From assembly GCA_026770025.1 (NCBI GenBank), contig JAMXDE010000035.1, forward strand, positions 434,001-498,000: a stretch of DNA of 64,000 nt, written 5' to 3'. Position numbers and translations under genes: made by a program. The DNA comes from Craspedostauros australis. Taxonomy: Eukaryota > Bacillariophyta > Bacillariophyceae > Mastogloiales > Achnanthaceae. A model generated the notes under the pieces. The model ran no database searches and was not told the DNA's origin. It was given only the letters and a program-made list of their open reading frames with translations. Shown piece after piece: positions 39,187 through 64,000 of this stretch; position 1 is the first letter of the stretch, and each line of letters opens with the position of its first letter.

Positions 39187-42100
39187 TCAGTCCTCCTGTT
39201 CTGCGTCACCGGTCTCGTGGTCTGGGCCTGCCGCCCTCACTGCCCTGACGAAACTCAGCCATGCCGTGCGCGTTTCCACCCCCATACCCTGGCCAGGCCC
39301 GCCGCCTTCCCTAGCCACCGCCATGTCCTGTCGGAGCCATCCGTCGAACCCTGTCGCTCTCTCCTCATGCTCTCTCGCGCGATCCAATCCTGCCTCAACC
39401 CTTGCTTGGGCTGCCGCCGCTTGACTTTTGGCCTTGTTGCGCGCACGCCATAGACCATGCACCAACCGCCACCCAGCCAGCACCGCATCCCGGGACCAGC
39501 ACTCCACCGTGTAGTATGGTCTGCCTGTACCATACTCCTCGAACCATTGACTCTGCCGTTCCCCCCACTCTACCGGCATCCAGCCCATTAGCACCTGCCA
39601 CCAACACGGCGCCTCGGCTTCGCTGAAATCCGGCCTCACCGACCTGCCGCAATGCGCACGGAGACTAGCGTAAATGTAGCTCGTCAGGGGCCCACTGGTG
39701 CCAATAGCCTCCAGCTCCTCAATGTACTGTTGGAAACACCGTTCCCACGACTCCCCGGATCTCGGGCACTGGACCACATGTTGCGTGGACTCCTCCCCCC
39801 CGCACCATGGGCACCTTTCCTCGCAACCGTACTGTCGCAACTTCCGGCCCACGCCGATGAACCCCGTCGTCATCTTAGCCACAAAGAGACGCTGCGACCA
39901 CGAGGCCCGCCCGAACGCCTTGCGCCGCCCGCACTCCACAATGGAACTAGCCGCTGGTAACGTCATGCTCATCTTCGCACCCCAGTACGCATCGACCGCG
40001 GCCCCTACAATGGCATCGTGGGTATCGGCCGCTGCCCATGATGACCGCGTGTCCCCGACCCGTAGTTGCCACCCGAAAGAACCCTCGCCCCTCCAGACCG
40101 GCCGCGGCTTCCCCCTTTTGGAGGCCCAGTACCACTTGGCCTCAGCGTCACAATGCACGTTCAGAACGGCCCACCGGTCGAGGCCTCCTGGCCCGTCATC
40201 TTGGTGTCCTCTCACCCACCTGAATCGCACTGCCAACGACAGGCGGCTGCGCAATGCCCGAATGTGATCCAACAGATCGAACGACGGCTGGTGCACCCCA
40301 GCGACCCCGTCCCTACAGTTCTCCATGGCCTTCATGCCGTCCAGCCCTATCACCAGGGGCCCTGCCCCCAGATCGCCACCCTGCTGCAACAGCAACAGCT
40401 CTCGCAAGATTCCGGCCACACCCGCTAGCTCGCTTCGGTAGGCCGACTGCACCGCTGTGGCACCTGGCACCACATTACACCCCGTTCTCTGGAGTCCTGA
40501 GTCCATGACGGATAGCACATATGCGGACGCGCCGAAACCCATCTTGAACGAACCATCGCTTACCGCCATAACGTCGCCCCGTCGGATCGCTGCGCGTAGC
40601 TCTCGGTCCGAGATGTCCCCTCGAACGCTGCGTCTCTCCCAATACGTCTCCTCGCCGTGGCCTGGGATGGTAGAGCTCGGCTCCAAGGTCTCCCCGATGC
40701 GTTCCGGCCTTGTCTCACCCAGCACCACCCCTCCTAACGTCTCTCGCTTAACTGACGCCCTGCTGGCTGCAGGTGGTAATCGGTTCTCCACTTGCCGCGT
40801 CGCGCGGAACACGGGCCCTCGAGCCTGCCGCCCTCTGTCTGGGCGCCACACTTGAAACCCACGCCCGGTTCGTCGCCATACGGTCTCCCTGGACTCGTCG
40901 GGCCACCACCAGATCCATGCACGGTCGCTGCGCAGCCACGCCTTCAGCCGCCTCCGCAGCCGCAGATGGCGATCCTCCGTAAGGCCCTCAATCCACTCCT
41001 GCCATACCAACCAGTGACGCCGGGAGAGTTTCTCAGGTGTTCGAGGCCATCCCGGGGACGCCTGCACACCCGCTCCCACCCCGTCGTATGCCCTCTTCAT
41101 GACGCTGGTGCCATCTGCCGTCACCATGTCGGCCAACGTGGTGATCCCCAACTGCAGTCGGCACTCGTTGAGGAGTGCTTTCTTCGTCTTGCTGTACCCC
41201 TGGTTGCGCCAGCTGTCCAGCAAGAACACGTTTCCAACCTGCTGCCGTCGTACGGACGGACCCTTGTCCGTGATGGATACTCCGAACCGCTGGGCTGCTG
41301 CCCACACTTGCGTGACCCACGTGTGCGTCACATGCCCTGCGCAGTCGGCGAAGCTTTGCAGGAAGAGTGGTCCACCCCCTGCTGTCTCCAGCTTGGTCTG
41401 TTCGATGGACAGCTCGATCAATCTGCCCGTTACTGTGCCCTCCTTCACCTCGTGCGCCATCGTTTGTAGTTGCTGCGCCAACTGCCACGCCCACGGGTTG
41501 CACATTCCAATGCCTCCTCGGCGTCGTGGCCCATACAGCACCGCTCTCGGGAACGATCGTGACACTCCCCCTCGCGGTAGCGCTTTTGTCCAGACCGGCG
41601 CGTACACAAATTCCCATTGCTTCTGGCTCAGGGTGACCGCCTCCATGGGGTACTCCAGCGTCTTGGTGATGCGGGTAGTGATTGCCATCCACACCTGTTC
41701 CTGGCTGAGTCCCCCTGATACCACTTTGTCGGCGAAGTCATCGGCTTTCTTTCGCAGATATCTTACTTGTGCCTCTGAAGTGCCTTTCATGTTCATGAAC
41801 ACTCCCAGCATTTGTTCTGACTCCCCCAGTTCCAGCCTTCGCAGGGTGGTGCGGGTCCCTTGCGCATCCCTCACTTCGAGCTGTGCTTCCACGTCTCGCC
41901 CTTGTAGCATCCGCCATCGGCCTGCTTTGTAGGCAAACGCCACACCCCACCAAAAGCTCTTTGCTGGCACCAAAGCGCCTCCGGTCGCCCGAAGCACCCC
42001 TTCCCAGTCCTCTAGTGCTTGCTGCGCACCGCCATGGACCTCCCCAAACGTCTGGCCCGGTTGCGAGATCATGAGGTCCGCGTCGTCCACAAAGCTGAGG

Positions 42101-44631
42101 CCCACAAGGCCCACATCCTTACCACTGAGGACCGATATGAAGCGCGCTCCGTGTTGGCGTGCTCTCATGACGTCAAAGATTGGTGAGCTGATGGCTGCCC
42201 ATGCTGCCGGTCCGCATCCATTCCCCTGAGCCAGGCCCTGCATGGGCTGCCAGCCGGTATTCCCATATGAGCGGGTCGAGACCCCATATGCCGTGCGGAC
42301 CCGGTGCTGGGCCTGTTGCAGCGTTCCAAACATTGACTTGATCGCCGTACGTCGCCCACCCGCATGTACCATAGCCATTGACGCCACGCTGTGCACCACT
42401 CTGTCGTAGCACGACTTGGCATCATTAGAGCAGATGGCCCCGTCCTGCCGCTTCTGTCTCATCACGTCCACCACCACTCGTTTGCATAGTGCTGCTGTGG
42501 ACGCCTTATGGCCTTTCCTGCTCCCAAACTGTTCCTTAGCCATTCTGCCCTGCCTCTCCGCCACCGCCATGAGGTCCTTTCCCAGCTTCTTATTGTTCAT
42601 ATTGAAGGCCGGATGAAACAATTGTATCGTCCTCATTTTTGCAACGTCGAAGATGCCTGCTTTCTTCAGAATCTGGAAGTCAGTCATGACCGTCCATGAC
42701 TGAGGGGTGAACCCGGTTTCATAGGGGATGCGCCTCAGTCTTCCGTCTATCTCTGCCAGCTCATCATGTCTCGCCGAGGCCTTGAAGTGGCCAAAGTGCG
42801 GGGCCGACGGTTCTGATGCCGTTCTCTCTTTCTGCTTCGCCCATCCGTCCACATGGTCTTTTATGGTGAACTTGGTGTTGGGCACCGCTGACTCCGCCTG
42901 CCCGACCTGGGTTAGCAGCAACCGTGGGTATAGTCGCTCCTCCTCCTGGGGCTCCCAGTTGCCTTGGCAGATCGCATCCGCCTCCTTTGTCGTTGCAAGA
43001 AACCCAAACCGTCGGCGCAGTCCCCCCGTCATGAACGGGGTGTTAGACGCCTGATTGAACCTCTGTTTGTTTTCGTCGATGCACGCCTTTTCTATCGCGC
43101 TTTTCGTGTCGCACACCTCGACGCTACCATCGGCCTTGGTCACTGTCACCTTGGTGGCTAGCGTTTGGCTTGGCTTCAGGCACGCCTTCAGTCTTCTGTT
43201 GTTTTTGATTTGGCGCTCCCGAGCTCGTCTTTGATGGCTGTTGGTGTTCTCGATCGCAGTCCCCCACCTCAACGCCTCCTGTTCGCTTTTGGCAGCCATG
43301 TATTCGTCCCTCAACTGGGCGGCCCGAGGCTTGATGGACTGGTAGGTCTGCCTGGCCTTGTTCATCCTGTTGACCACTTCCTGCGGGCCCAACTGTCGTG
43401 GCCGTTTCACTCCCAGCCTTTGGCTAACCGCTTGAATAACGATGAGCTGATATGGACGTTGCTCTGCTTCTTCCACACCGCGGTCCACAGTCTGACTTCG
43501 TCTCGCGACCGCTTCAAGATGGGTGACCAATCAAGCGCTCCCATTTTGAGTTTTCGGCACCCGCGTTCGGCCTCCATCCGAAGCTGGTCCATGCCGGCGT
43601 CAATGAGGTTGTACTCCTTCGCTAGGTGCGGCGTCACGGCACCCTGCGTGCGCACTGCCTCTTCCAGCTCTCGTATTTGCCAGTGGAACCCTTGTTGCTG
43701 GGCTTGTTGCCACAGGCGCTCGTTGTATTCTTGCACGGCACGTTGGTCCCCCCATCCTTAGCCGTCTTGGCTCTACACCCGCCAAAGGATGAGTTCTTCC
43801 GATTGTTGCTGCCTCGTCAATGTCTATCCAGATCATGCAGTGATCCGAACTAATTGCCTCCCCAAATCCTGTGTAACCTGCTGCTGACACTACAACCTCA
43901 CCAGTCACATATATGCCGTCAATGGGTGTGTGGCGTTTGTTTCTCTGTTGAGTGGCTTGTCGTGGGAGCATGTTGTGGAGGTGGGTCACTGCTTCTCGCA
44001 TCCCGAGCTCCTGGAACACATCCGCACACCTGCCCTTCAGGACGTCTTGGTTCGCGTCGATGCCCACTACTACCGCGTCACCTTCTTGCTTCCATTGTCT
44101 GACGGATAGTGCTAGGTCTAGCAGCATCGCCTCCCTTGGTTCTCGAACATCGTCATGTTCGAGCAGGTGGGTACGTTGCTGGACCCACGTTGATGTAGGT
44201 CGGGCGGAAATGCACGCGCGGTACGCCGATACCATTCTCACATGTTTTCCCCCCTTCCCCTCGATGCGCTGCCATACCCACCGACCCAGGCCGGACGGGT
44301 CCCCGCCTTCATCCACCACTCTCTGAGACAGCGAGGCCGTTGTAGCGATTCCGGTGCCCCCGAATTGTACTTTGCTGGTCGACTTGCTGTTACGGTTGTA
44401 GGCCGCTGTCGCTCTTGCTCTTGCCCTCCACCTCCCCACTCTATGCTTCCAGGAGTCCTCCTTGTGTAGGGTGCTCCATTTGAGTCCTACCTCAGCCACC
44501 ATCATGACGCTGATCTTCTTGCCTGAAACTTCCTTCTCGATTTGCTTGTTTTTGTGCTTCCACGGTTCGATTGGCAGTCGTGCAATGTTTTGGAACGCCA
44601 CCCTGATCGTTCCCGTTTTGGGTATATCCAT
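39187..44631 (-). pseudogene. LINE ORF2: endonuclease, reverse transcriptase, RNase H (two frameshifts)
   Basis: Three overlapping frames together encode one ORF2. Frame one (44631 to about 43750) is an endonuclease/exonuclease/phosphatase domain with VVGIDANQD, IDGIYV and SSDHCMIWID. Frame two (about 43750-43410) and frame three (about 43410-39187) carry the rest: RT with SFVDDADLM as the YxDD-type box near 42090, RNase H with VMAVSDGSF, SELAGV, LDGMKAM and VRGHQDD (about 40580-40180), and the knuckle CPWCGGEESTQHVVQC near 39790. The first shift lies in a run of six C (43748-43753, G on the coding strand), where five would keep frame. The second lies near 43405-43420. The first two residues before IPKT derive from the inserted transposon end. 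Confidence 0.88.
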
Positions 44632-44636
44632 GAGGA
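44624..44636. repeat. Left ATAT duplication and terminal inverted repeat of the piggyBac-like element
   Basis: ATAT (44624-44627) is followed by CCATGAGGA, the inverted match of TCCTCATGG at 49881-49889. Confidence 0.85.
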
Positions 44637-44664
44637 AATTCGTCCACGATAAAAGTCCAAAATT

Positions 44665-44717
44665 GTCTCAGGAGACCAAGCGGATTCGAGGGGTGCCAAA
44701 ATCGGTCTCCTCAGACC
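44665..44717. repeat. Subterminal motif cluster, left end of the piggyBac-like element
   Basis: Two copies of a partly palindromic 12-14 base motif (GTCTCAGGAGAC and GGTCTCCTCAGACC) lie 37-90 bases inside the left end. Confidence 0.6.
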
Positions 44718-45082
44718 AAAATCAAGTAACGCGATGTTTTATCGCGATGGCATTTTCTTCGACCACCTCGACTAAGACTATTTGTTCGTGCTCACTTTTT
44801 CCCCCCCCTCATATCGTTTTTTCCGATTTCTCAATGTCCTGGCATGCCCTCCTGTTTCTATGGCTCAATGCTTCTCTGGATGCATTGAGCCACTTGCATC
44901 TCATCACAGTTCTTCGTATACATCCGTTCATTGCATGCTTATCCATGTCCTCCACGCTCTTTACAGGACATGATCGTTCCGCAGCGTTCTTCCTCTTGCA
45001 TCACAATGATTTGTGACCACGCCTCTTCACAGGAACGATACACCACCCCGTATTTGATGGATGTTTGTGTGCTATTACTTTG

Positions 45083-48000
45083 CTATATGTTACATCTTGA
45101 CCCATTCCCATGGCTGTACTTTCCTTGTTGAGCTGCTGCACGCGTTCGCGGTCGTTGTGGAGTTGTCTCCGAGCGCGTCCGCCGTCTCTGTGGTGCTGGT
45201 GAAGTCTCAGCAGGAGTCTGGGATGAGGGTTTCGCTCGTTTCCTTCCTTGGCTCGATTGGATATCTTTGCTTGTTTGCACTGCTGACGGAGTCTTGCGCT
45301 TCCCTCCCTTCCTGTCCGGTTGCTTCGCACTCCACTCAGTGTAATCCGCCTTGGTCTTCCTTGTCCATGATCTGTTGCTTCCGTGGAGCATTCGGAAACA
45401 TGTGTTGCTTGCAATGATTTTTTCGTTCGCCTTCTTTCGTAGATTTGACATTGCGATGCTGGTATGCACTCCATTTGCAACTCCCCATCTCTTGTGATTT
45501 GCAGTGGGAGGCACGCAGGCAAAAAAGTGACACTGCATGCACATCCATTTCGTTACAACCCCACATACAACGCAGGGTTTCTTCACGTTTTCACAAAAGA
45601 TGGGCTCATGGCTGCCCGTGCGGAGACGTCGTTCGAGCGCAACCATGGCGGGCGTTGGGGCAGCTGGATTCCCAGACAGCAGGTTCCGGATGCTCTTTCC
45701 GTCCCTCTCCTCGCCTTCAACAGTTGGTCTACCATCGTAGATTTGATTGTCTGTATCCGAATCTGTGTCTTCTGTGTTGTTGATTGCTCCCTGAATAAAC
45801 CAGTTTGCGCGTTCGCCGTCATCAGCTGCTTCTCTGTTGCTGCCAGCAGCTTGGGCGACGATGACTCCAAATGCCCCTCGCAATGTTTCCAACGAAACCG
45901 AAACACTGCTGCGATGATTCAGCATGTTACGGTAGGTCTGCAGCACCGTTGCGTTGTCCAGGTCTCTATTCGTGTGAACATCGTCTGTGCAACAGTAGTG
46001 CATTAGCTTGTGCAGAAACAGAAGGATGACTTCCAAAATCCGTACCACTGCTTGGCATTGGAAGGTTGCGAATGGCGGCTGCACCTTGTGCTGCCTCATC
46101 ATCCTGGTCATCAAATCAGAGCCGCCCTTGAATGAATTCCAACGGGCTACAAACGATGGAACCAAGGTGTGGACCTTTGGCACCGGCATTGGTAGTTCCT
46201 GGCATGCCTTCCATATCATCAATTGGTGGAATACATCCTCTTCTGTCAATGCCGCAATGTGTCGCCCCCCGGTTGAGCCCCTGTGGGGGTTGCGTTTCGA
46301 ATTCAGATACTTTCGCAGCGTCTTGCCTGACGCTGCCTCGCGGGACGCGGCAGTGGAGTGCGCATATGCAAACTCCAACTTCAGCTTGTACAGATTTTGT
46401 AGCACGATTCCGTATGATTGAAGTACATTGGGTTGGAAGTGTGTGGACATTGATCTTATGGTGTTAGCAGTTGCATCACCTGGTGGTAGGAGGAGGTTGG
46501 TTCGAGAGCATCAGTGGAGAAAAGCAAGAACAGTTGGAGTGAGCACCGCGTATCGACTTTTGAAATTCATGACAGGAGCTCCATCCATTACATACAAGGA
46601 CGTACCAATTACAATCATCGCCCCTGTCACCCCAAAGACGAAGGCATGATGAAGCAGTTGAATCATCTCTGATTTCTTTTCGAATAATGTCCTCCACTTG
46701 TCGTCTTGGAGATCCACGAACACATGGCTCTTTCCCTCTGTCCCATGCTCCCAATCGGCCTTCCGCTGGTGCCGTCTTTCGAGGTCTTCTGTGTCTGTCG
46801 TTGCCCGAGTCTTGATCTCCACAACAAAGACTTCATCGTTGCTGTCGTCCTCTGGATCACCGATGATTGCAAGGAAGTCGACGGAGGCGCGGGCGTACGG
46901 TGCATCGGTGTTTCGCACCACCCCCACTTGGTACGTCGCCTTCACTTGCCTTCCCTCGCCGCCCACTCCAACACAGCGGAGGGCCTGCTTCATGAGGGGA
47001 GCTTCGTTTTTGTGGCCCAGCTTGGCGAGCTTTCCAGCCTTGCCCCGAACCGACTTCATGAACCACGATTGTAACATGAGAGTCGTGAGGTCGTGGTCAA
47101 GCTTGTGCATCCACTCTGAAGTGGTGCTTCCTGCCTGGAAACTGGATGGATGGCCAGGCTCCTGCTCGATCTCCTTCATCACCAGGGCAACCAATCTCTC
47201 CACAACCTTCTCTCGTGGCATTTTTGTTATGTTGGTCTTGGGGAGACGAGCTTTAAGGTCTTTCTTGAGGGAGGCGTCGCTGATGGCCAGGAATCGCCGA
47301 CGAACCTTGTCGTCATCAGCAAGAATGGTGCGGAGCATTTTGCATCGTGTGGCTTTGCTCCGCTGGGCCTTGCTGCGGTAAAAAATAGCCATGAGTTCGA
47401 TGAAGTCTTTGTCAGGGAAGGCATCCTCTTCAGGGGCATCGTCGCGGAGAGAGGAGAGAAGTGCAATTTCAACATGACGGGAATCGAAGGTGGGAGATGT
47501 GAGTTTGGAGTATAAATCAAGTGCTCGCAATCTCGCCTTTTCTGCTTGCAATGCTTGGAGGTACTTCGCCTTCCGGCCAAGCACGTCATATCCCAAGTAG
47601 CAGCCAATGCACTCCCATGCAGGTTGATTGAATATTGTGGCGTTGTCAGCATTGCACCACTCTCCGCTTTCAAGCACCTTCTGTATCATGCTGTAGGTGG
47701 AGGTGCTCGTGAACGCGAAGCGGCGGTGGACGAACCACAGATGGTCACCCTGGCCACAGGTGAGTCCATCCACAGGTAGATCCCACACCATGTCTGCCCA
47801 ACGCTGTTTCACATTCTTGGATGCGGCAGCCACAATGCCGGTTGCGCCAAGGGGAGTTTGGGATATGGCAGCTCTGACTGCCGACGAGCGTGTTGGATTG
47901 ACAGTGCATGTTTGGAAGAAGTGTGGGTAGTGTGGGGATCTTCGATTGTTCCCATGCTTGTCCTCCACCATGTCTTGGTACTTTTTCTGGTCACTGGCGT

Positions 48001-49497
48001 TGGTGAGGGTGAGGTCCCACTCAAAGCCACTCGATCTTGTGGAGAGTGCAAGTACAGTTTGTTCGTTGAGACGGTATCCATAGCATGTCAATTGTCGTTT
48101 GCCGATGCTGTTGGTGACAGCGCTATGCACCATCCTTGGCCCCTTCCTCCCAATATTCATCTGGAGTGCACCCTTGCCAATGGATGGGCCGAAGGTGAAT
48201 GGTAGGTATCCAGCTCGCATGTGTGTACCCTCCAGATTGGCACCCCTGGTAGTGAGGAAGACGGTAGTGCTGTGGCAGTTGTATCCTCGATCTGTCATGA
48301 GGGTTAGATTTCGAAAAGAACCATCTGGTTCTTTTAGTTGGGTGAACAACCGATAGGTGTCGTCATCCAACCCATCTCGGCAAGCAGCCAACCCCACAAC
48401 AAGTCCAGAAGCAGACTGGACAAGAGTGTTCAGGGTTAATCTGAAGGAACGCAGAAGACGGAAACGAGACGGAGACCTGAGGTGAGGAATTGAAATATGC
48501 AATGGAGATGCCACCCCTCTGCAACAAAACACACAATGCTGTTCGTCACTTACCCATTACGATTTGCATGAGTATGTCTCATGCCAAGCAGATAGCTGCT
48601 CTCCGCACGGCTGCTGCAATGGACCTTGTCATCATCCAATGTGACAATCCGATTCGGGCAACGATGCCGAAGACAAAGAATCTCAAGCGTCAAGTTGAAA
48701 GCACTTTCCAATTCGGTCCAAACAAAGCGATGACCATTCCGAGAGACAGGGTTTCCATTGCGTCGAATACGATCCCAGAGATTGACGTAGTGCTGTCTGG
48801 CAGGAAAGCTGGGAAGCGTGGTAGTGTTGCCGCCATCGTAGAGCCGACGAACGGTGCAGCCTTCCACCATCTGTGATGTGATGGCATAGAGGAACTCCAT
48901 GTACTCAGCATATGAGAAACCCAGCCCGCTTGGGCCAAATGCACGGATGAAAATGGGAGATGTGGGGCCCAGCACATCGTGGATCAAGTCATGGGGTGTT
49001 GGCACGTATGGTGGAGACCCAGGAGGACTCTTGGGGAAGCGTTGCAAGACGGCTGTTCGCAGTGAACGAATCTCTTCCTTTGCATGGAGGAGAGCGAGCT
49101 TGTGGGCTTCTCCAACAGTCACTTTTGTTGCATGCTCATAGGCCGAGAGCACCTTCCACTCCACAGAGATCTCCCTACTCCCCTTCTTCGGAGGGAGGAC
49201 GATGCGATGGCTGTAGCCAGGAAGCGAGCACGGTTGGACTCCAAAATCGCTAACAGGATCTGGAGGCACCACTGTAGGCACCGCACCCTCGCCATCACTG
49301 TTGACACAGATGCCATCTCCTTCTTCTTCATGGGTGTGTTTGCCTGCATCACCCATTCCATCATCCAAAACTTGTCCAAAGGGATGAAGCTGCTCGGATG
49401 GAGAGACGTTGCCATGGCCGATTGTTGCAACTGGAGTGGAAGCTGTGGGCAAGTCATCATTGGCATTGGGAGCATTGGGCGGACGAGAAGATGCCAT
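45083..49497 (-). CDS. PiggyBac-like transposase with an inserted PD-(D/E)XK (YqaJ/lambda-exonuclease-like) domain
   Basis: The exon model is 49497-48554, 48518-46606 and 46479-45083 with GT-AG introns (donors GTAAGT and GTACGT) and kept frame, about 1417 residues. A disordered N-terminus leads to a helical region and the first catalytic block TLDDDKV (Asp288-290). The second is MTDRGYN (Asp391) and the third FKGGSDLM (Asp1074), matching the DDE order of piggyBac transposases. A Cys-rich end with PCVVCG and CMQCHFFAC resembles their C-terminal zinc domain. The spacing from the second to the third Asp is about 683 residues, against about 100 in the classical enzyme. The extra stretch holds GHKNEAPLMKQ (Glu820), ASVDFLA (Asp862) and VVEIKTR (Glu882, Lys884), the E-D-ExK order of YqaJ/lambda-exonuclease nucleases. 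Intron 2 placement is less certain than intron 1. Confidence 0.82.
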
Positions 49498-49790
49498 GAT
49501 GAAGGTGATGTATCGAAGAAGGCAAGCTGGAAGAAGAAGGCAGTATGGGGGATGCTGCGAATGACAAGCAAGGAGGTGCGAGGTTGGTGATGGAATGAAA
49601 TGAACCACAGCAGGCAAGGAGGTTGGAGGGGGAGGGTTGTTGCCATGCGGAGGAAAGCGAAGAAACAATGACGATGAAGAAAATCTTGGAGGAGGAGATG
49701 TCAGAACAAAAAGCTGGCAGAATTTCTTTTAGTCGAAGTATTCGACCGAAAAATCCTATCGTGGAGATTTATCACGTGGACTTGAAAATT

Positions 49791-49872
49791 GTCTCCTCAG
49801 ACCGGATTTTGGCGAACCTCCGGGTAACTTTGTCTCCTGAGCCCAAAATGGCCATTTTTGGTCTCCCCAGAC
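49791..49872. repeat. Subterminal motif cluster, right end of the piggyBac-like element
   Basis: Three copies of GTCTCC(T/C)(C/G)AG-type sequence lie at 49791, 49832 and 49861, mirroring the left end. Confidence 0.6.
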
Positions 49873-49880
49873 AGAATCTG

Positions 49881-49893
49881 TCCTCATGGATAT
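49881..49893. repeat. Right terminal inverted repeat and ATAT duplication of the piggyBac-like element
   Basis: TCCTCATGG (49881-49889) is followed by ATAT (49890-49893). Confidence 0.85.
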
Positions 49894-50356
49894 TCATCTT
49901 GTGCCCGAAGATTCCCGATTCCGCCTGTTCGTCTCAGTGTTCTGTGGTTGTGGCGTTATTTCCTGTGGGGTTCTCATTGCTTATTCCTGCCTGGTTATTT
50001 CTTGCGTCTGTCCGCCTGTCCGCCTGTCCGCCTGTCGTGTTTTCCTTGTTGCCCCGTACTCGTCTGTACCTCCGTCCCTTCATGATCTTTGCACTGCCTG
50101 TTGCCTGCTGAGAGACCTGGCTGACTGTCTTGTAAGCCGATCGCCTGTGCTCCTTCCTCCTTCTGTGCCTGCTGTGTGAGCCTGGCTGCATTCGGCATGT
50201 TAGTTCTGTTACGCGTAGCCTCCTCTTCTACTTTGGTGTGCCCTCTTAGTTCGGCGGTTGCCGCTGGTGCCGTCGGACGCTGTGTCGCCCGTCCTCTGAC
50301 CAGTTGGGTGGAATCCTTGTCAGGTCTTCCGCCCTTGCGATGCTCGTAGGGAACCC

Positions 50357-53239
50357 TCATTCTTGGCCTGCGGCCCTCTCGCCGCTGGCTGCTGAACCTG
50401 GTTTACTTGCAGCCGGTTCTTGCTGATCTTGTGGCCTCACGTTTGGCCCTTCTGTCCCACTAGGCGATAACCCGTCTTTCGCTCTGATTTTCTTCATGGG
50501 GCTTACCGCCCTGGTTGTTCCCTTTGCTGGCTCGTGGTGTGCCTTGTCATTTGCTCGGCAGGATTCTGTGCCCTGTTTTCTGGCTTGTCTTCTTGTCGTC
50601 ATGCGGGTGATTCCCGTACTCGCCGGGGGCCCCTCTGAACTGTCGTCTGACGACAAATCGACCAGGTTGACCACCTCGTCGTTGATGTCGTTTGCTCCAT
50701 TGTTACCGACGCCTACTGATCCCATGGAGACGTCTGACATAGAATCCTCGTCGGGTGCATGCTTGAAGTCGTCGTCCTTGTTGTGCTGGCTAAGCTCGCG
50801 AAGCGTCAACACGGGCTGGTCGACGTCCCTTCCTTCTGGAGCGAGGGTGTCTTCCTGACTGCCTGGGCTTGGCTTGGTTGTTCCCCCCTCGGCTTGCGGT
50901 TGCTGTTGGCCAGCCCCGGGTCCTAGGATCGCTTCCATCCACTGGGCTCGGGCTCCCGGGTCGATTACCTCCAATTTCTTCATTGCCTCCCCTACCACTC
51001 TCATAGTCTCCTTTTTTGCTTCCGGGCATTGCGATTTCATCGAAGTAATGGCGGATCTCAACAAGGCATCATTGCAGTTGTGCCAGCGATGCATTACTCC
51101 TACGGACCCGTGGTCCCTGTCCATTGTCTTAGGGATGGTGCCAAAGTCAATGGCAAATGTCATCTTTGCCTTGCCATCCTCTTGCTCCTGGCTGTCCTCA
51201 CTGTCTGGTTTCTGTAACCCCATGCTTGCGTACCACTCGTCATCCACTTGTTTCTTTCTTTTATCTCGCTCCGCGCCGGCTCTGACCACTTCACTGTGCA
51301 TGGTCATCTCGTAGCTTGTGTTTGCGTCCCAGATATAGTCTGTAAACCAGGTTGCTGCCTTGCCTCCACAGTACTTGTATAGGACGGTTGGCAGCAGTGG
51401 GATGATCAAGCTTGCCTCGTCTGCCACGTCCTGACTGTACACGAACACCGTGTCGCCCCAGTTCCTTCCATTTTCGACTGCCAGGAACAGGGCCGACCCA
51501 TCTTTGTCCCCTGAGGTGGACATGAGCTTGGAGAGCATGTTGCGTAGTGAGACCTTGTTCTTGGGCTCGACATAGTCTAGTCTGTGGATGAACGACACGA
51601 TGGTGGTCTTCGTGTTGGCCAGGAACTCCTTCTGTTTCTTTTTGTACATCATGGCGTTTCGGCGGTCTTCGTGAGTCGCCGGACGTTGTTCGTCGGTCAG
51701 ATCTGAAATGAATCGGAGCCGTTTGCCTAGGATCCTATTCTTCCCGGCAGCGAACAGCTTTCCCATCAGTTGTTCACACTTGATGGAATCTTCTTTGCTT
51801 GCCAGTATGTGCGCGGCGTAGACTTGGTCCTCCTTTTTCACTTTCTCATATTTGTCGAGCTTGATGGCTTGCATTCGGATGCCTACCTTTACCTTGGCTT
51901 TTGTCATCTCCTCTAGGCCATTGATGGCTTCTGTGAGGTCGCTGCAGTTGGTGGATCTGTGGCTGGCACAGAACCATCCTACTGGTACTTCCTCGCGCGC
52001 CTGGACTGTACATTTGGAGAACATGATGTCATTGTCCAGCAAGTGTCCGCCGTCCTGCAGTTCTGCCCACTCCTTGTTGTGGGAGAAGTAGAACCTGCAC
52101 CAGGTCTGCTTCCCTGCCTTCGTGTATATTTTGTTCACGTAGTTCCTGGCTTTGGAGATGGATGTCACTTTGTCGCTGCTGGCCGTTAAGCCTGGGCCTT
52201 TCCCGTCCCATCGATGAATGACCAACTCCGGGTCTTGCGAGAATAGGTGCTCCATCATCATTGCTAGTGCTTCGGTGACCTCTTTCTCAACTGCCTTGTC
52301 TTTCCCTTTCAGGGTTGGGCTTCGGAATGTACAGTACGTACTGAAAGCTTTTCCCAGTGCCTCATTGACATTGTGCTTATACTCTCGTTTCACCAAAGGC
52401 TTGCTCAGGAAAAATTGGTCTGCTGGCATGAGGGTGTCTTCCTTGTCTGCCGATTTTGGAGTTGTCTTCAGTGCTTCTGCAAAGGTGAGCTTGCCGGTCT
52501 TGTACGGGTTGCTGGTTGGGTTGGCTTGCTTCTTCTTTTCGTCTTTGGTGGTGTTCTTTTGGCTGGGTGTTTTGGTTGCCTGGTTGGTATTGTGTTTCTG
52601 TGCTGTTTGCTGCTTCATTTTGATGGTGGCCTTCTTCTCTGGTGTTGTTGTTGTTTGGCTGGGTGATTCGACCTTTCTTTGTTTCTCTGGTGACTCCTGC
52701 TGTTCGGTCGTGTTGACTATCCTTGCTGCTATCCACAGGTTGGTCAGGATGCTGCCGATGATGCTACCTTCATTCCAAAAGGATGGTGGAAACACTTCTG
52801 CTCGTGTGGCTAGCAACCTTGCCTCCGTCTGTTGCACCTTCTGGTTTGTTGCTGCGTCCCAGTGGCATGCCCTTCCTTTAGTAAACACGGTAATCCACTC
52901 TTCCAACGTCTCCAGATCGCCTCTTTTGCTGTCCAGGTATTGGCGGATCGTGTTCCATGCCATGTTGATTGAGTCGCCTCCTCCGACACATTCCTGGTAC
53001 AGCTTGGCGCTGCTCACCGCCATTTTTCGTTTGGCTTCCCGTTCTTCCTCCGCTGTCCACACCGCCTGTTTTTCAGCGATGCCATCTTCGGGCGCCTTCA
53101 GCGCCGTAACTCCACCAAAATTCACTTGTTTCTTGCGCGGTTTTCCGCTTGGCAACCCTACTTGCTTGCCTTGCTTGGTTGGCGTCATGATACTCTTGGA
53201 CCACTTCGTCTGCTTTTTAAATTTTATGTTTTCTGTCAT
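50357..53239 (-). CDS. LINE ORF1 protein (960 aa)
   Basis: It starts at an ATG at 53239, about 130 bases inside the 5' end of the LINE. The first 270 residues are basic and low-complexity (Lys/Thr/Gln-rich), fitting nucleic-acid binding. Residues about 280-740 form a globular part with no motif I can name. It includes a conserved-looking AIDFGTIPKTMDRDHGSVGV and RWHNCNDALLRSAITS. The C-terminus is Asp/Ser then Pro/Gly-rich. There is no zinc knuckle. ORF1 proteins of LINEs bind the element RNA and act as chaperones in the RNP; that role is assumed from position. No stop or frameshift interrupts it. ORF2 originally began about 460 bases downstream, at the spot where the DNA transposon inserted. 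Confidence 0.82.
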   Translation of the reverse strand: MTENIKFKKQTKWSKSIMTPTKQGKQVGLPSGKPRKKQVNFGGVTALKAPEDGIAEKQAVWTAEEEREAKRKMAVSSAKLYQECVGGGDSINMAWNTIRQYLDSKRGDLETLEEWITVFTKGRACHWDAATNQKVQQTEARLLATRAEVFPPSFWNEGSIIGSILTNLWIAARIVNTTEQQESPEKQRKVESPSQTTTTPEKKATIKMKQQTAQKHNTNQATKTPSQKNTTKDEKKKQANPTSNPYKTGKLTFAEALKTTPKSADKEDTLMPADQFFLSKPLVKREYKHNVNEALGKAFSTYCTFRSPTLKGKDKAVEKEVTEALAMMMEHLFSQDPELVIHRWDGKGPGLTASSDKVTSISKARNYVNKIYTKAGKQTWCRFYFSHNKEWAELQDGGHLLDNDIMFSKCTVQAREEVPVGWFCASHRSTNCSDLTEAINGLEEMTKAKVKVGIRMQAIKLDKYEKVKKEDQVYAAHILASKEDSIKCEQLMGKLFAAGKNRILGKRLRFISDLTDEQRPATHEDRRNAMMYKKKQKEFLANTKTTIVSFIHRLDYVEPKNKVSLRNMLSKLMSTSGDKDGSALFLAVENGRNWGDTVFVYSQDVADEASLIIPLLPTVLYKYCGGKAATWFTDYIWDANTSYEMTMHSEVVRAGAERDKRKKQVDDEWYASMGLQKPDSEDSQEQEDGKAKMTFAIDFGTIPKTMDRDHGSVGVMHRWHNCNDALLRSAITSMKSQCPEAKKETMRVVGEAMKKLEVIDPGARAQWMEAILGPGAGQQQPQAEGGTTKPSPGSQEDTLAPEGRDVDQPVLTLRELSQHNKDDDFKHAPDEDSMSDVSMGSVGVGNNGANDINDEVVNLVDLSSDDSSEGPPASTGITRMTTRRQARKQGTESCRANDKAHHEPAKGTTRAVSPMKKIRAKDGLSPSGTEGPNVRPQDQQEPAASKPGSAASGERAAGQE

Positions 53240-53368
53240 TGGTGAATGCGTACGTCCGCGAGTTCCAAAACCGTTGGCGATAACCGTAGGTTTCAGTACT
53301 GACTCTTACGCGGATTCAAAACCTACTGGGTCTACACACGCCTTTTTAATTCAGCGATTCCAGAAGAG

Positions 53369-62676: not shown

Positions 62677-64000
62677 ATGAGGATCACTCTCGGAGCCAAG
62701 GTCACTGGCAGATGCGGGCCTCGTCGGTCCAACACACCTCGCAAACAGCGTGACTACATCGTGGGACGCACGATCAAGGTTCTTCCCAAACACAACTGGA
62801 TCGTCCACTGGGAATCCTTGGGTGTCGTATGCCAACACAGTTCCCAAACCCTCATTCGCCTGGAAGGCGATGAAAGTCCACTTCCCGACACCAAGGTCGA
62901 AGAATACATTCAAACCATCTTTGTCGGAAAAGGAGTTGCGGCGTTGGATGCTTTCACGAAGAGCCACAGATTCCTCCTGCCACCAGAGGCGATCACTGGG
63001 CCGGCGGATGCGCCTGCAGTCAGCCAAGACTTGGGTGTTGGGACGAACTCTCTGTCCAGCAACATTCTCCCGAGCAACGGTCCGGCTGCGACTTCTCTAC
63101 CACTGAACTCTCCTCCCATCAACATTCACCCAACCAACGTTCCGGCCGCGACTTCCCAACCAACAAACTCTTCGCGCACATTCCCAACCAACAAAGTCAG
63201 TATTGACAGCAGATCCGAAGAGCCAGAGGATGATGCATCTATGGATTGCAACATCGACAACAACATCGACAACGACGTGTTGAATTATGCAATTGAGATG
63301 GAGGAACAAACCCTCCACTACGAACCACATCACGCAGAGAAGGCCACACTGATCTCTGCCAACACCTCCATCAGCATGGGATCTCGAGCCGACGTAATGA
63401 CGTGGAAGGTTGTACCAGATGACCACATTGGCAGCCCCAAAGATGGATCTTCACGGGAGTGGGTGGGGGTTGCAAACTTCGACTTCACCAACCTAACTGT
63501 CGCGGGCAGGGGCAGGGACAGCAGGTACCAATGTATCAACATGCTGCATCTCCTACAGCACATGTGGCCTGGCGACTGGAAGGCCCAGGTTGACAAGCTC
63601 AATCAAAGGATCATCACAAGGCAACTTCCCACGAGAATATTGGAGGATCAGATCAACAATCACCTCATATCTCATCACGAGTTTTGGGTGTTCTTTGGAT
63701 TGCTCCTTCTGGGCACTATCGAAGGCACATCCTGCCTGTGGGGCGACAGAGACACTGAAGGATTCAAACAGCCAATGAACGTCACCGACCACATGAAGAA
63801 TTATCGGTTTCGTGCCATCCGAGAATCACTGATTCCACACATCTCCACGGATGCATCCAAGCAATTCTTGGATCCATGGTGGCAAATTCAACCAGGTGTG
63901 GATGCTTTCAACGCAAAGCGGGCGGAGATCATGTGCGCGAGCACACTGAAGGTGATGGATGAATCCATGAGTGCCTTCAAGACACGAACAACCAAGAATG
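62677..64000 (+). CDS. PiggyBac-like transposase, N-terminal 441 codons (runs off the window)
   Basis: It starts at an ATG at 62677 and stays open to the last base, so the 3' end lies outside. The first 130 residues have a Lys/His-rich start and a compact region (NWIVHWESLG). A Pro/Asn/Ser-rich linker with NIDNNIDND follows. From about residue 270 the sequence follows piggyBac transposases: a helical block with HEFWVFFGLLLLGTIEG, then DAFNAKRAEI, then the first catalytic block LKVMDESMSAFKTRT just before the edge. The DESMSA motif is typical of the DDE_Tnp_1_7 family, and more typical than the TLDDDKV of the element at 45-49.5 kb. Whether this one also carries a nuclease insert cannot be seen. 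Confidence 0.85.
   Translation, partial: MRITLGAKVTGRCGPRRSNTPRKQRDYIVGRTIKVLPKHNWIVHWESLGVVCQHSSQTLIRLEGDESPLPDTKVEEYIQTIFVGKGVAALDAFTKSHRFLLPPEAITGPADAPAVSQDLGVGTNSLSSNILPSNGPAATSLPLNSPPINIHPTNVPAATSQPTNSSRTFPTNKVSIDSRSEEPEDDASMDCNIDNNIDNDVLNYAIEMEEQTLHYEPHHAEKATLISANTSISMGSRADVMTWKVVPDDHIGSPKDGSSREWVGVANFDFTNLTVAGRGRDSRYQCINMLHLLQHMWPGDWKAQVDKLNQRIITRQLPTRILEDQINNHLISHHEFWVFFGLLLLGTIEGTSCLWGDRDTEGFKQPMNVTDHMKNYRFRAIRESLIPHISTDASKQFLDPWWQIQPGVDAFNAKRAEIMCASTLKVMDESMSAFKTRTTKN

Follow-up and report, generated by a model that had tools for sequence, protein, structure and literature searches.

We find that the window analysed here, a stretch of 64,000 nucleotides from the gliding diatom Craspedostauros australis, carries an element that, judged from its sequence, is a recently mobile cut-and-paste DNA transposon. 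Its gene probably encodes a piggyBac-type transposase with a lambda-exonuclease/YqaJ-type domain located between the second and third catalytic aspartates. Taken as a whole, we somewhat favour a reading in which a transposase of piggyBac ancestry contains an inserted nuclease, for which we infer a role in donor-end trimming.

The original prediction had described the ends of the element as intact, and we find the same 13-bp terminal repeat, ATATCCATGAGGA, at both of them (Table 1). The 5' end reads ATATCC in the window copy and in all ten full copies listed, and the 3' end reads GGATAT in the window copy and in seven of seven copies listed. All eight copies that were read on both sides are flanked at both ends by the 4-bp target duplication ATAT, in place of the TTAA of piggyBac. 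The element interrupts a LINE, the frame of which is continuous with a single ATAT, and two uninterrupted relatives of this LINE (L056 and L058) have a spacing identical to that of the interrupted one with one ATAT. Only one site separates the element from another copy (L009/L047), so it moved recently, and the near-identical copies suggest that it is active now or was until very recently.

Table 1 Features of the element and its gene, as positions in the window
Feature	Position	Strand	Remarks
Whole element, ATAT to ATAT	44624..49893	-	5,270 bp
5' terminal inverted repeat	49881..49893	-	ATATCCATGAGGA; first 4 bases are the ATAT target duplication
3' terminal inverted repeat	44624..44636	-	last 4 bases are the ATAT target duplication
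Coding span	45083..49497	-	three exons, 1,391 residues
Exon 1: N-terminal region and D1	48554..49497	-	
Intron 1 (GTAAGT..CAG)	48441..48553	-	
Exon 2: D2, strand after D2, linker region, nuclease domain	46606..48440	-	610 residues
Intron 2 (GTACGT..CCAG)	46480..46605	-	
Exon 3: D3 region, C-terminal cysteine-rich region, stop	45083..46479	-	
D288-D290 (TLDDDK), first catalytic Asp block	48628..48636	-	invariant 11/11; aligned with piggyBac IDE motif
D365 (LMTDRGY), second catalytic Asp	48290..48292	-	invariant 11/11; aligned with piggyBac MDN
Lambda-exonuclease/YqaJ-like nuclease domain (putative)	46607..47089	-	residues 766-926; G927 codon spans intron 2
E794 of G-x3-E	47003..47005	-	invariant 11/11
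D836 of SVDFL	46877..46879	-	invariant 11/11
E856-x-K858	46811..46819	-	invariant 11/11
Q909 (EMIQLLHH)	46658..46660	-	outside the scored alignments
D1048 (WNSFKGGSD), proposed third catalytic Asp	46115..46117	-	invariant 10/10 (all proteins that extend this far); profile support weak
C-terminal Cys/His-rich stretch like piggyBac CRD	45365..45574	-	invariant Cys/His; alignment P 0.27, not significant alone

We hypothesize that the DDD core, like piggyBac with TTAA, would excise the element with self-complementary overhangs of 4 nt, here ATAT, and would integrate it at ATAT. After excision the tethered nuclease would trim the ends of the donor site, taking away the overhang that otherwise allows seamless rejoining; repair from a sister or homologue still carrying the element would therefore be favoured, and excision would become copy gain. 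This role of the nuclease in donor-end trimming, templated repair and copy gain is a tentative suggestion. Lambda exonuclease is trimeric, and the need for a dimeric transposase to accommodate a trimeric lambda-type exonuclease counts against the favoured reading. Alternatively, an active nuclease could work on the transposon or the target, where it might open hairpins, trim the ends of the transposon or prepare ATAT sites. The covalent placement of the domain near the core would suit such a role, and for Dada its authors proposed processing of cleaved 3' ends as the task of the internal exonucleases (PMC3706591). However, piggyBac hairpins are described as being opened by piggyBac itself (PMC7351741), and the eight copies read on both sides show no erosion at their ends; we regard this alternative as unlikely.

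The coding span of the original prediction is correct, and its three exons give the open spliced frame that had been claimed, but the acceptor of intron 1 fits better at 48441 than at 48519. This drops 26 residues, and the numbering used here (D288-290, D365 and D1048 for the core; E794, D836, E856, K858 and Q909 for the nuclease) follows from it, so that the numbers first given in exon 1 stand and those in exons 2 and 3 were 26 too high. With this acceptor about 76 residues separate D1 from D2, and the corresponding D268-D346 spacing of piggyBac is 78. In 9 of 11 relatives CAG directly precedes the homologous start of exon 2, and in the other two (L032 and L040) it is AAG.

Relationship to piggyBac was assessed with a profile of 11 spliced family proteins, chosen as readable copies. 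Aligned with the ordinary piggyBac elements of the same genome, this profile scored 48.1 (P = 2e-4), compared to 32.9 for the reversed control and 32.1 for the best of 97 column shuffles. The alignment is colinear and in register across D1, D2, GTxxRxxxxP and the ST strand after D2, which bears out the predicted piggyBac order for the first two aspartates. Pfam matched no family, PF13843 (DDE_Tnp_1_7) included, to the 1,391-residue protein or to its separate exons. Between the strand after D2 and the piggyBac-like WNxxKGGSD motif lie about 570 residues, close to the 580 extra residues originally proposed, whereas the ordinary piggyBac elements of this genome have a few tens. The linker region, which is conserved and in which a known domain was sought in four family members and none found, and the nuclease would sit just after the part that matches the piggyBac insertion domain and before D3. 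Insertion domains of DDE/D transposases are described as occupying one topological position, after the fifth strand (PMC7351741). The C-terminal stretch has invariant residues at C1229, C1232, C1240, C1243, C1248, C1287 and H1292. A further locus, L046, was considered as a link between piggyBac and the nuclease, as about 2 kb separate a Pfam piggyBac match there from a match to the nuclease; it was rejected, the former match lying within a fragment of an ordinary piggyBac resembling L006, beside the nuclease match.

The third aspartate is proposed mainly from its motif, WNxxKGGSD, which resembles the YNxxxGGxD of piggyBac, since a profile of the D3 region alone was matched or exceeded by 8 of 150 shuffles and is not significant. 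This leaves room for a third catalytic acid upstream of the nuclease, at E575 (in an invariant EW motif), D457 or D547, all invariant in 11 of 11 proteins; the nuclease would then follow a complete DDE core, as in KolobokE. However, WNxxKGGSD has the P-x13-D spacing of piggyBac and gives the best local alignment at the expected place, and the piggyBac alignment extends as far as a strand that D3 follows closely in ordinary piggyBac. Furthermore, the element has 5'-CC after ATAT where Kolobok has 5'-RR (PMC9587614), and a search of the 11 proteins for the C/DxxH motif of KolobokE showed that no His from D365 to the nuclease is invariant. An upstream third acid is therefore improbable.

Within the nuclease, the predicted E-D-ExK layout of the YqaJ/lambda-exonuclease type holds in order and in residues among the 11 chosen readable proteins, in which Q909 is likewise invariant and which have 151 invariant columns in all. 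Some other copies depart from it: E794 is Lys in L012, L031, L046 and 6 of 13 deletion derivatives, and D836 is Asn in 6 of the 26 nuclease stretches compared. By its substitution pattern the domain is under purifying selection, with dN/dS values of 0.07 (L014), 0.13 (L016) and 0.16 (L017), and of 0.48 for L011, where dS is merely 0.03. In all eight diverged subfamilies its identity is higher than that of the D1 and D2 core stretches. A nuclease fold could also dispense with catalysis and serve as an insertion that binds DNA or acts as a scaffold, for instance on the ends or the target; the piggyBac insertion domain is described as touching TTAA without itself being the catalytic site (PMC7351741), and one derivative group has the change of D to N. 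The invariance of E, D, ExK and Q in the chosen readable proteins argues against this, as does the only Asn copy examined with its surroundings, L090, from which the D1-D2 core is missing too, and such a scaffold seems to us distinctly improbable.

The original prediction also placed the domain among PD-(D/E)XK nucleases. In profile searches TIGR03033, a lambda-exonuclease family, was matched by 5 of the 11 members (best E 0.0051; consensus E 0.0035) and was the only family matched by more than one, at 14.5 bits for the nuclease, below the cut-off of 68, and the match was lost when the 610-residue exon 2 was the query. Against a profile of 15 YqaJ/lambda-exonuclease proteins the domain aligned with D and ExK in register (score 25.7, P 0.0029); one of 150 shuffles was as high (28.8, above the true score), the reversed control gave 18.9, and HHalign probabilities were low (2.5 to 10.8%). 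A single pattern fits 8 of the 15 YqaJ proteins, and these have the order GxxxE, D, ExK, Q that is conserved in the family, although the spacing from K to Q is 51 in the family and 21-26 in those eight; Q909 is likely the counterpart of the conserved Gln of YqaJ proteins. Searches of Pfam, PHROGs and the PDB with the domain gave no specific relative, and PF09588 was absent from the matches. The PDB returned three matches only, all at E 0.65 or worse, and Pfam nine one-off matches, of which two, PF10107 and PF02021, are PD-(D/E)XK families but too weak to use. A PF09588 search of the genome gave two places, neither in this transposon family, and a single-sequence structure prediction (pLDDT 36) was unusable. 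Every score is under its curated cut-off, as a chance likeness in a domain that is not a nuclease would have it, but the recurrence of a single NCBIfam family, the shared motif register and the invariant motif residues make this very unlikely.

That two or three separate genes were wrongly joined is hardly credible: no transcript was found across the exon 2/3 junction, and the sole transcript-derived protein comes from a deletion derivative, but one exon encodes both D2 and the nuclease, a GT comes straight after exon 1 in all 11 relatives listed, intron 2 donors and AG acceptors keep their places (9/9 each), exon 3 of the window copy has no in-frame ATG upstream of its first conserved block, and all ten close copies, seven of which contain internal stops, keep the frame of all three exons.

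Searches of protein databases, viral contigs and genome contigs, which need shared exact words or patterns, gave no relative outside C. australis; one of the protein searches reached only proteins 0.55-1.75 times 162 residues long. The only protein-database relative, P0004 (uniref and mmetsp), is the C. australis protein of the deletion derivative.

The original prediction knew of no described piggyBac family with this layout. Joinings of transposase and exonuclease are already known in Dada, KolobokE and ISL2EU, but in other superfamilies. With the piggyBac superfamily, represented by Trichoplusia ni piggyBac (PMC7351741), the element shares the proposed DDD order, the D1-D2 spacing, the motif after D2 and a palindromic AT-only 4-bp duplication and, less surely, the GG-x-D third motif and a cysteine-rich C-terminus. 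Dada of Laccaria bicolor and Ectocarpus siliculosus also has an exonuclease inserted after the second catalytic D, between D2 and DxxH, but this is a DEDDy DnaQ-like 3'-5' exonuclease in a different transposase superfamily (PMC3706591). KolobokE likewise encodes a PD-(D/E)XK lambda-exonuclease-like nuclease with its transposase, and Kolobok also makes 4-bp duplications, but these are TTAA (PMC9587614). ISL2EU, a cut-and-paste transposon, encodes a YqaJ nuclease too, but as a separate ORF, with an AT dinucleotide duplication and a Harbinger-like transposase (PMC4482050 and PMC9179366). The phage lambda exonuclease/YqaJ enzymes (PF09588, TIGR03033), in contrast to the domain described here, are free-standing.

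The element probably is, or was very recently, active and is therefore open to assay. PiggyBac owes its wide use to excision without a footprint. A piggyBac relative that has a nuclease beside its active site and uses ATAT, not TTAA, would reveal the extent to which such chemistry can be altered, and would test whether transposases steer repair of the donor site. We think it unlikely, on present evidence, that this is a piggyBac lineage without footprint-free excision, in which the nuclease resects its own donor break, with templated repair and a net gain of copies after every jump; were this true, the transposase itself would choose the host repair pathway. Dada, the Kolobok lineages and ISL2EU already join exonucleases to cut-and-paste transposases, and this probable further case suggests repeated selection for end processing.

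The original prediction placed a YqaJ/lambda-exonuclease-like nuclease inside the catalytic core of a piggyBac-like transposase, with the three catalytic Asp blocks in piggyBac order. We compared a family profile of 11 spliced proteins (relatives' exon limits approximate and set by motifs; 9 retained by HHalign) with 14 piggyBac-type proteins of the same genome plus piggyBat. HHalign aligned 236 columns with a score of 48.1 (P 2e-4); no column shuffle out of 97 exceeded 32.1, and reversing the profile gave 32.9. In this alignment TLDDDK falls on IDE, MTDRGY on MDN, GTHMRAGYLP on GTARRRNGFP and VLALST on VLMVST. The proposed third-Asp motif, VPxxHTxVPxxxxxWNxxKGGSD, lined up with its piggyBac counterpart, but below significance (score 16.5, P 0.09, 8 of 150 shuffles as high), and the nuclease might instead lie downstream of the true catalytic core.

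The exon limits were compared with those of 11 relatives. Exon 1 is followed by GT in all 11, and the start of exon 2 is preceded by CAG in nine and by AAG in L032 and L040. The exon 2 end and the exon 3 start could each be located in nine, always with GT next and AG before, respectively. The intron 1 acceptor first proposed was replaced by one at 48441, making the protein 26 residues shorter.

Features of the element and related loci (window positions unless a contig is named)
Feature	Position	Strand	Remark
Element	44624-49893	minus	5,270 bp; both ends carry ATATCCATGAGGA
Exon 1	48554-49497	minus	
Exon 2	46606-48440	minus	
Exon 3	45083-46479	minus	
Linker motif	within 45083-48440		residues about 529-576
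Subterminal repeats	44660-44720 and 49800-49880		around GTCTCCTGAGAC and GTCTGAGGAGAC, near both element ends
LINE-like retrotransposon	39187-44623 and 49894-53305	minus	split by element
Another piggyBac-type match	63661-64000		begins here (C33:497661-498758); includes TAG stop
L062, separate YqaJ-type gene	C25:34000-35500		

Both the intact ends and the open spliced frame of the prediction were borne out. The element interrupts a LINE-like retrotransposon near the start of a downstream ORF; a 982-aa ORF lies upstream and a reverse transcriptase ORF downstream. Because the LINE ORF reads MNIPKTGTIRVAFQN when a single ATAT is retained, and two relatives without the element (L056 and L058) have identical spacing and frame, ATAT represents a 4-bp duplication. 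The 5' end is ATATCC in the window copy and 10 full copies (11/11), and the 3' end is GGATAT in the window copy and the 7 copies examined (8/8); the genome holds 24 exact matches to a 5' end pattern. The subterminal repeats are possible transposase binding sites. The L009/L047 copy differs from the window copy at one site across its entire length, and four other close copies diverge by ~4%. The 1,391-aa frame is open in the window copy and in three of 10 other close copies (L009, L014 and L016); internal stops occur in seven, including L019, which has an additional small gap in exon 1, and all 10 retain the frame of all three exons.

Deletion derivatives are also present. In L020-L030 the exon 2 match stops at residue 515-516 of 642, and in L024, which was fully read, a deletion joins mid-nuclease to the end of exon 3 (NTDAP|APQR), removing half of the nuclease and the third Asp. 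The sole protein-database relative found, P0004 of C. australis, shares this junction. These derivatives retain their ends (exact 5' pattern in 8/11, 3' pattern in 9/11) and were presumably mobilised in trans. Among the ordinary piggyBac-type loci L001-L008, termini are TATCCCTT..AAGGGATA where ends were read; only L001 and L002 were read at both ends, and neither shows an evident TTAA duplication. The element itself showed neither a TTAA duplication nor a PF13843 match, and we therefore class it as a piggyBac-related lineage rather than a canonical piggyBac member.

The predicted long insert (~580 residues) agrees with the ~570 residues that separate the end of the piggyBac alignment from the WNxxKGGSD motif, compared to ~60 from the VLMVST strand to the third Asp in L001. 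This stretch is made up of a linker region, the nuclease and about a hundred residues from the start of exon 3. According to PMC7351741, the piggyBac insertion domain (372-433) comes after the fifth strand, and other DDE/D transposases carry insertion domains at the same topological place; the additional residues thus appear to expand an insertion site that is already known. Searched against Pfam, the linker region gave nothing beyond weak one-off scores. It contains a conserved motif, LTCxQxDxLWF..R..TS..EW, which may mark an additional domain. In L042 and L044 several hundred Ser/Thr-rich residues separate it from the nuclease.

Residues 766-927 retain GxxxE, SVDFL, VExK and EMIQLLHH. NCBIfam TIGR03033, a lambda-exonuclease family, matched five of the 11 members, with a best E of 0.0051, and also a consensus (0.0035), but far under its cut-off, and the match disappears with whole exon 2 as the query; phage lambda exonuclease and a diatom YqaJ gene both match as controls. 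Four further NCBIfam families gave one match apiece (E at least 0.09). Against a profile of 15 YqaJ-type proteins the nuclease scored 25.7 (P 0.0029), and its D and ExK motifs lined up with theirs; one of 150 shuffles was higher (28.8), the reversed profile reached 18.9 and HHalign probabilities were low (2.5 to 10.8%). Pfam, PHROGs, PDB and a PF09588 search of the genome did not identify the domain. The best PF09588 match in the genome is L062 (E 1.6e-17).

The catalytic positions are invariant across 11 aligned sequences selected from readable copies (the others 44-98% identical to the first), whereas the Glu of GxxxE is changed to Lys in L012, L031, L046 and 6 of 13 deletion derivatives. 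Among 26 stretches of >120 residues, shorter pieces being left out, Asp is present in 18, replaced by Asn in six (L074, L075, L076, L079, L087 and L090) and disrupted in two; L090, the sole Asn-group copy read in context, has also lost the D1-D2 core. It might be that the domain only binds. Nuclease dN/dS was 0.07, 0.13 and 0.16 against L014, L016 and L017 (dS 0.07-0.12), and 0.48 against L011 at dS 0.03. Across eight diverged subfamilies, where dS is mostly saturated, nuclease identity is 44-66%, exceeding that of the exon 1 and D2 cores in all eight and of the exon 3 core in four. Were the nuclease a useless passenger, one would not expect it to rank among the best-kept parts.

PMC7351741 describes piggyBac hairpins on 4-nt TTAA ends that are reopened, with complementary overhangs rejoining seamlessly. 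Since ATAT is likewise a self-complementary tetranucleotide, this chemistry would fit the element. Seamless rejoining would cost one element copy at the donor site. We infer that a lambda-type 5'-3' exonuclease held at the donor break could strip off the overhangs and leave exposed 3' tails, from which templated repair would restore the element. A related idea, 3'-end processing by their internal exonuclease, was put forward for Dada by its authors (PMC3706591). Alternatively, the nuclease might trim the transposon ends.

Literature on piggyBac with YqaJ, lambda exonuclease or nuclease domains, on piggyBac in diatoms and on YqaJ in DNA transposons, covered outside Repbase and most subscription papers, yielded, among the papers listed, no piggyBac with such a domain. 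Teratorn is reportedly a fusion between a piggyBac element and a herpesvirus. Exonucleases joined to transposases are already known: in Dada a DnaQ exonuclease lies between D2 and the DxxH motif, in KolobokE a lambda-exonuclease-like nuclease has a downstream position, and in ISL2EU a second ORF encodes a YqaJ protein.
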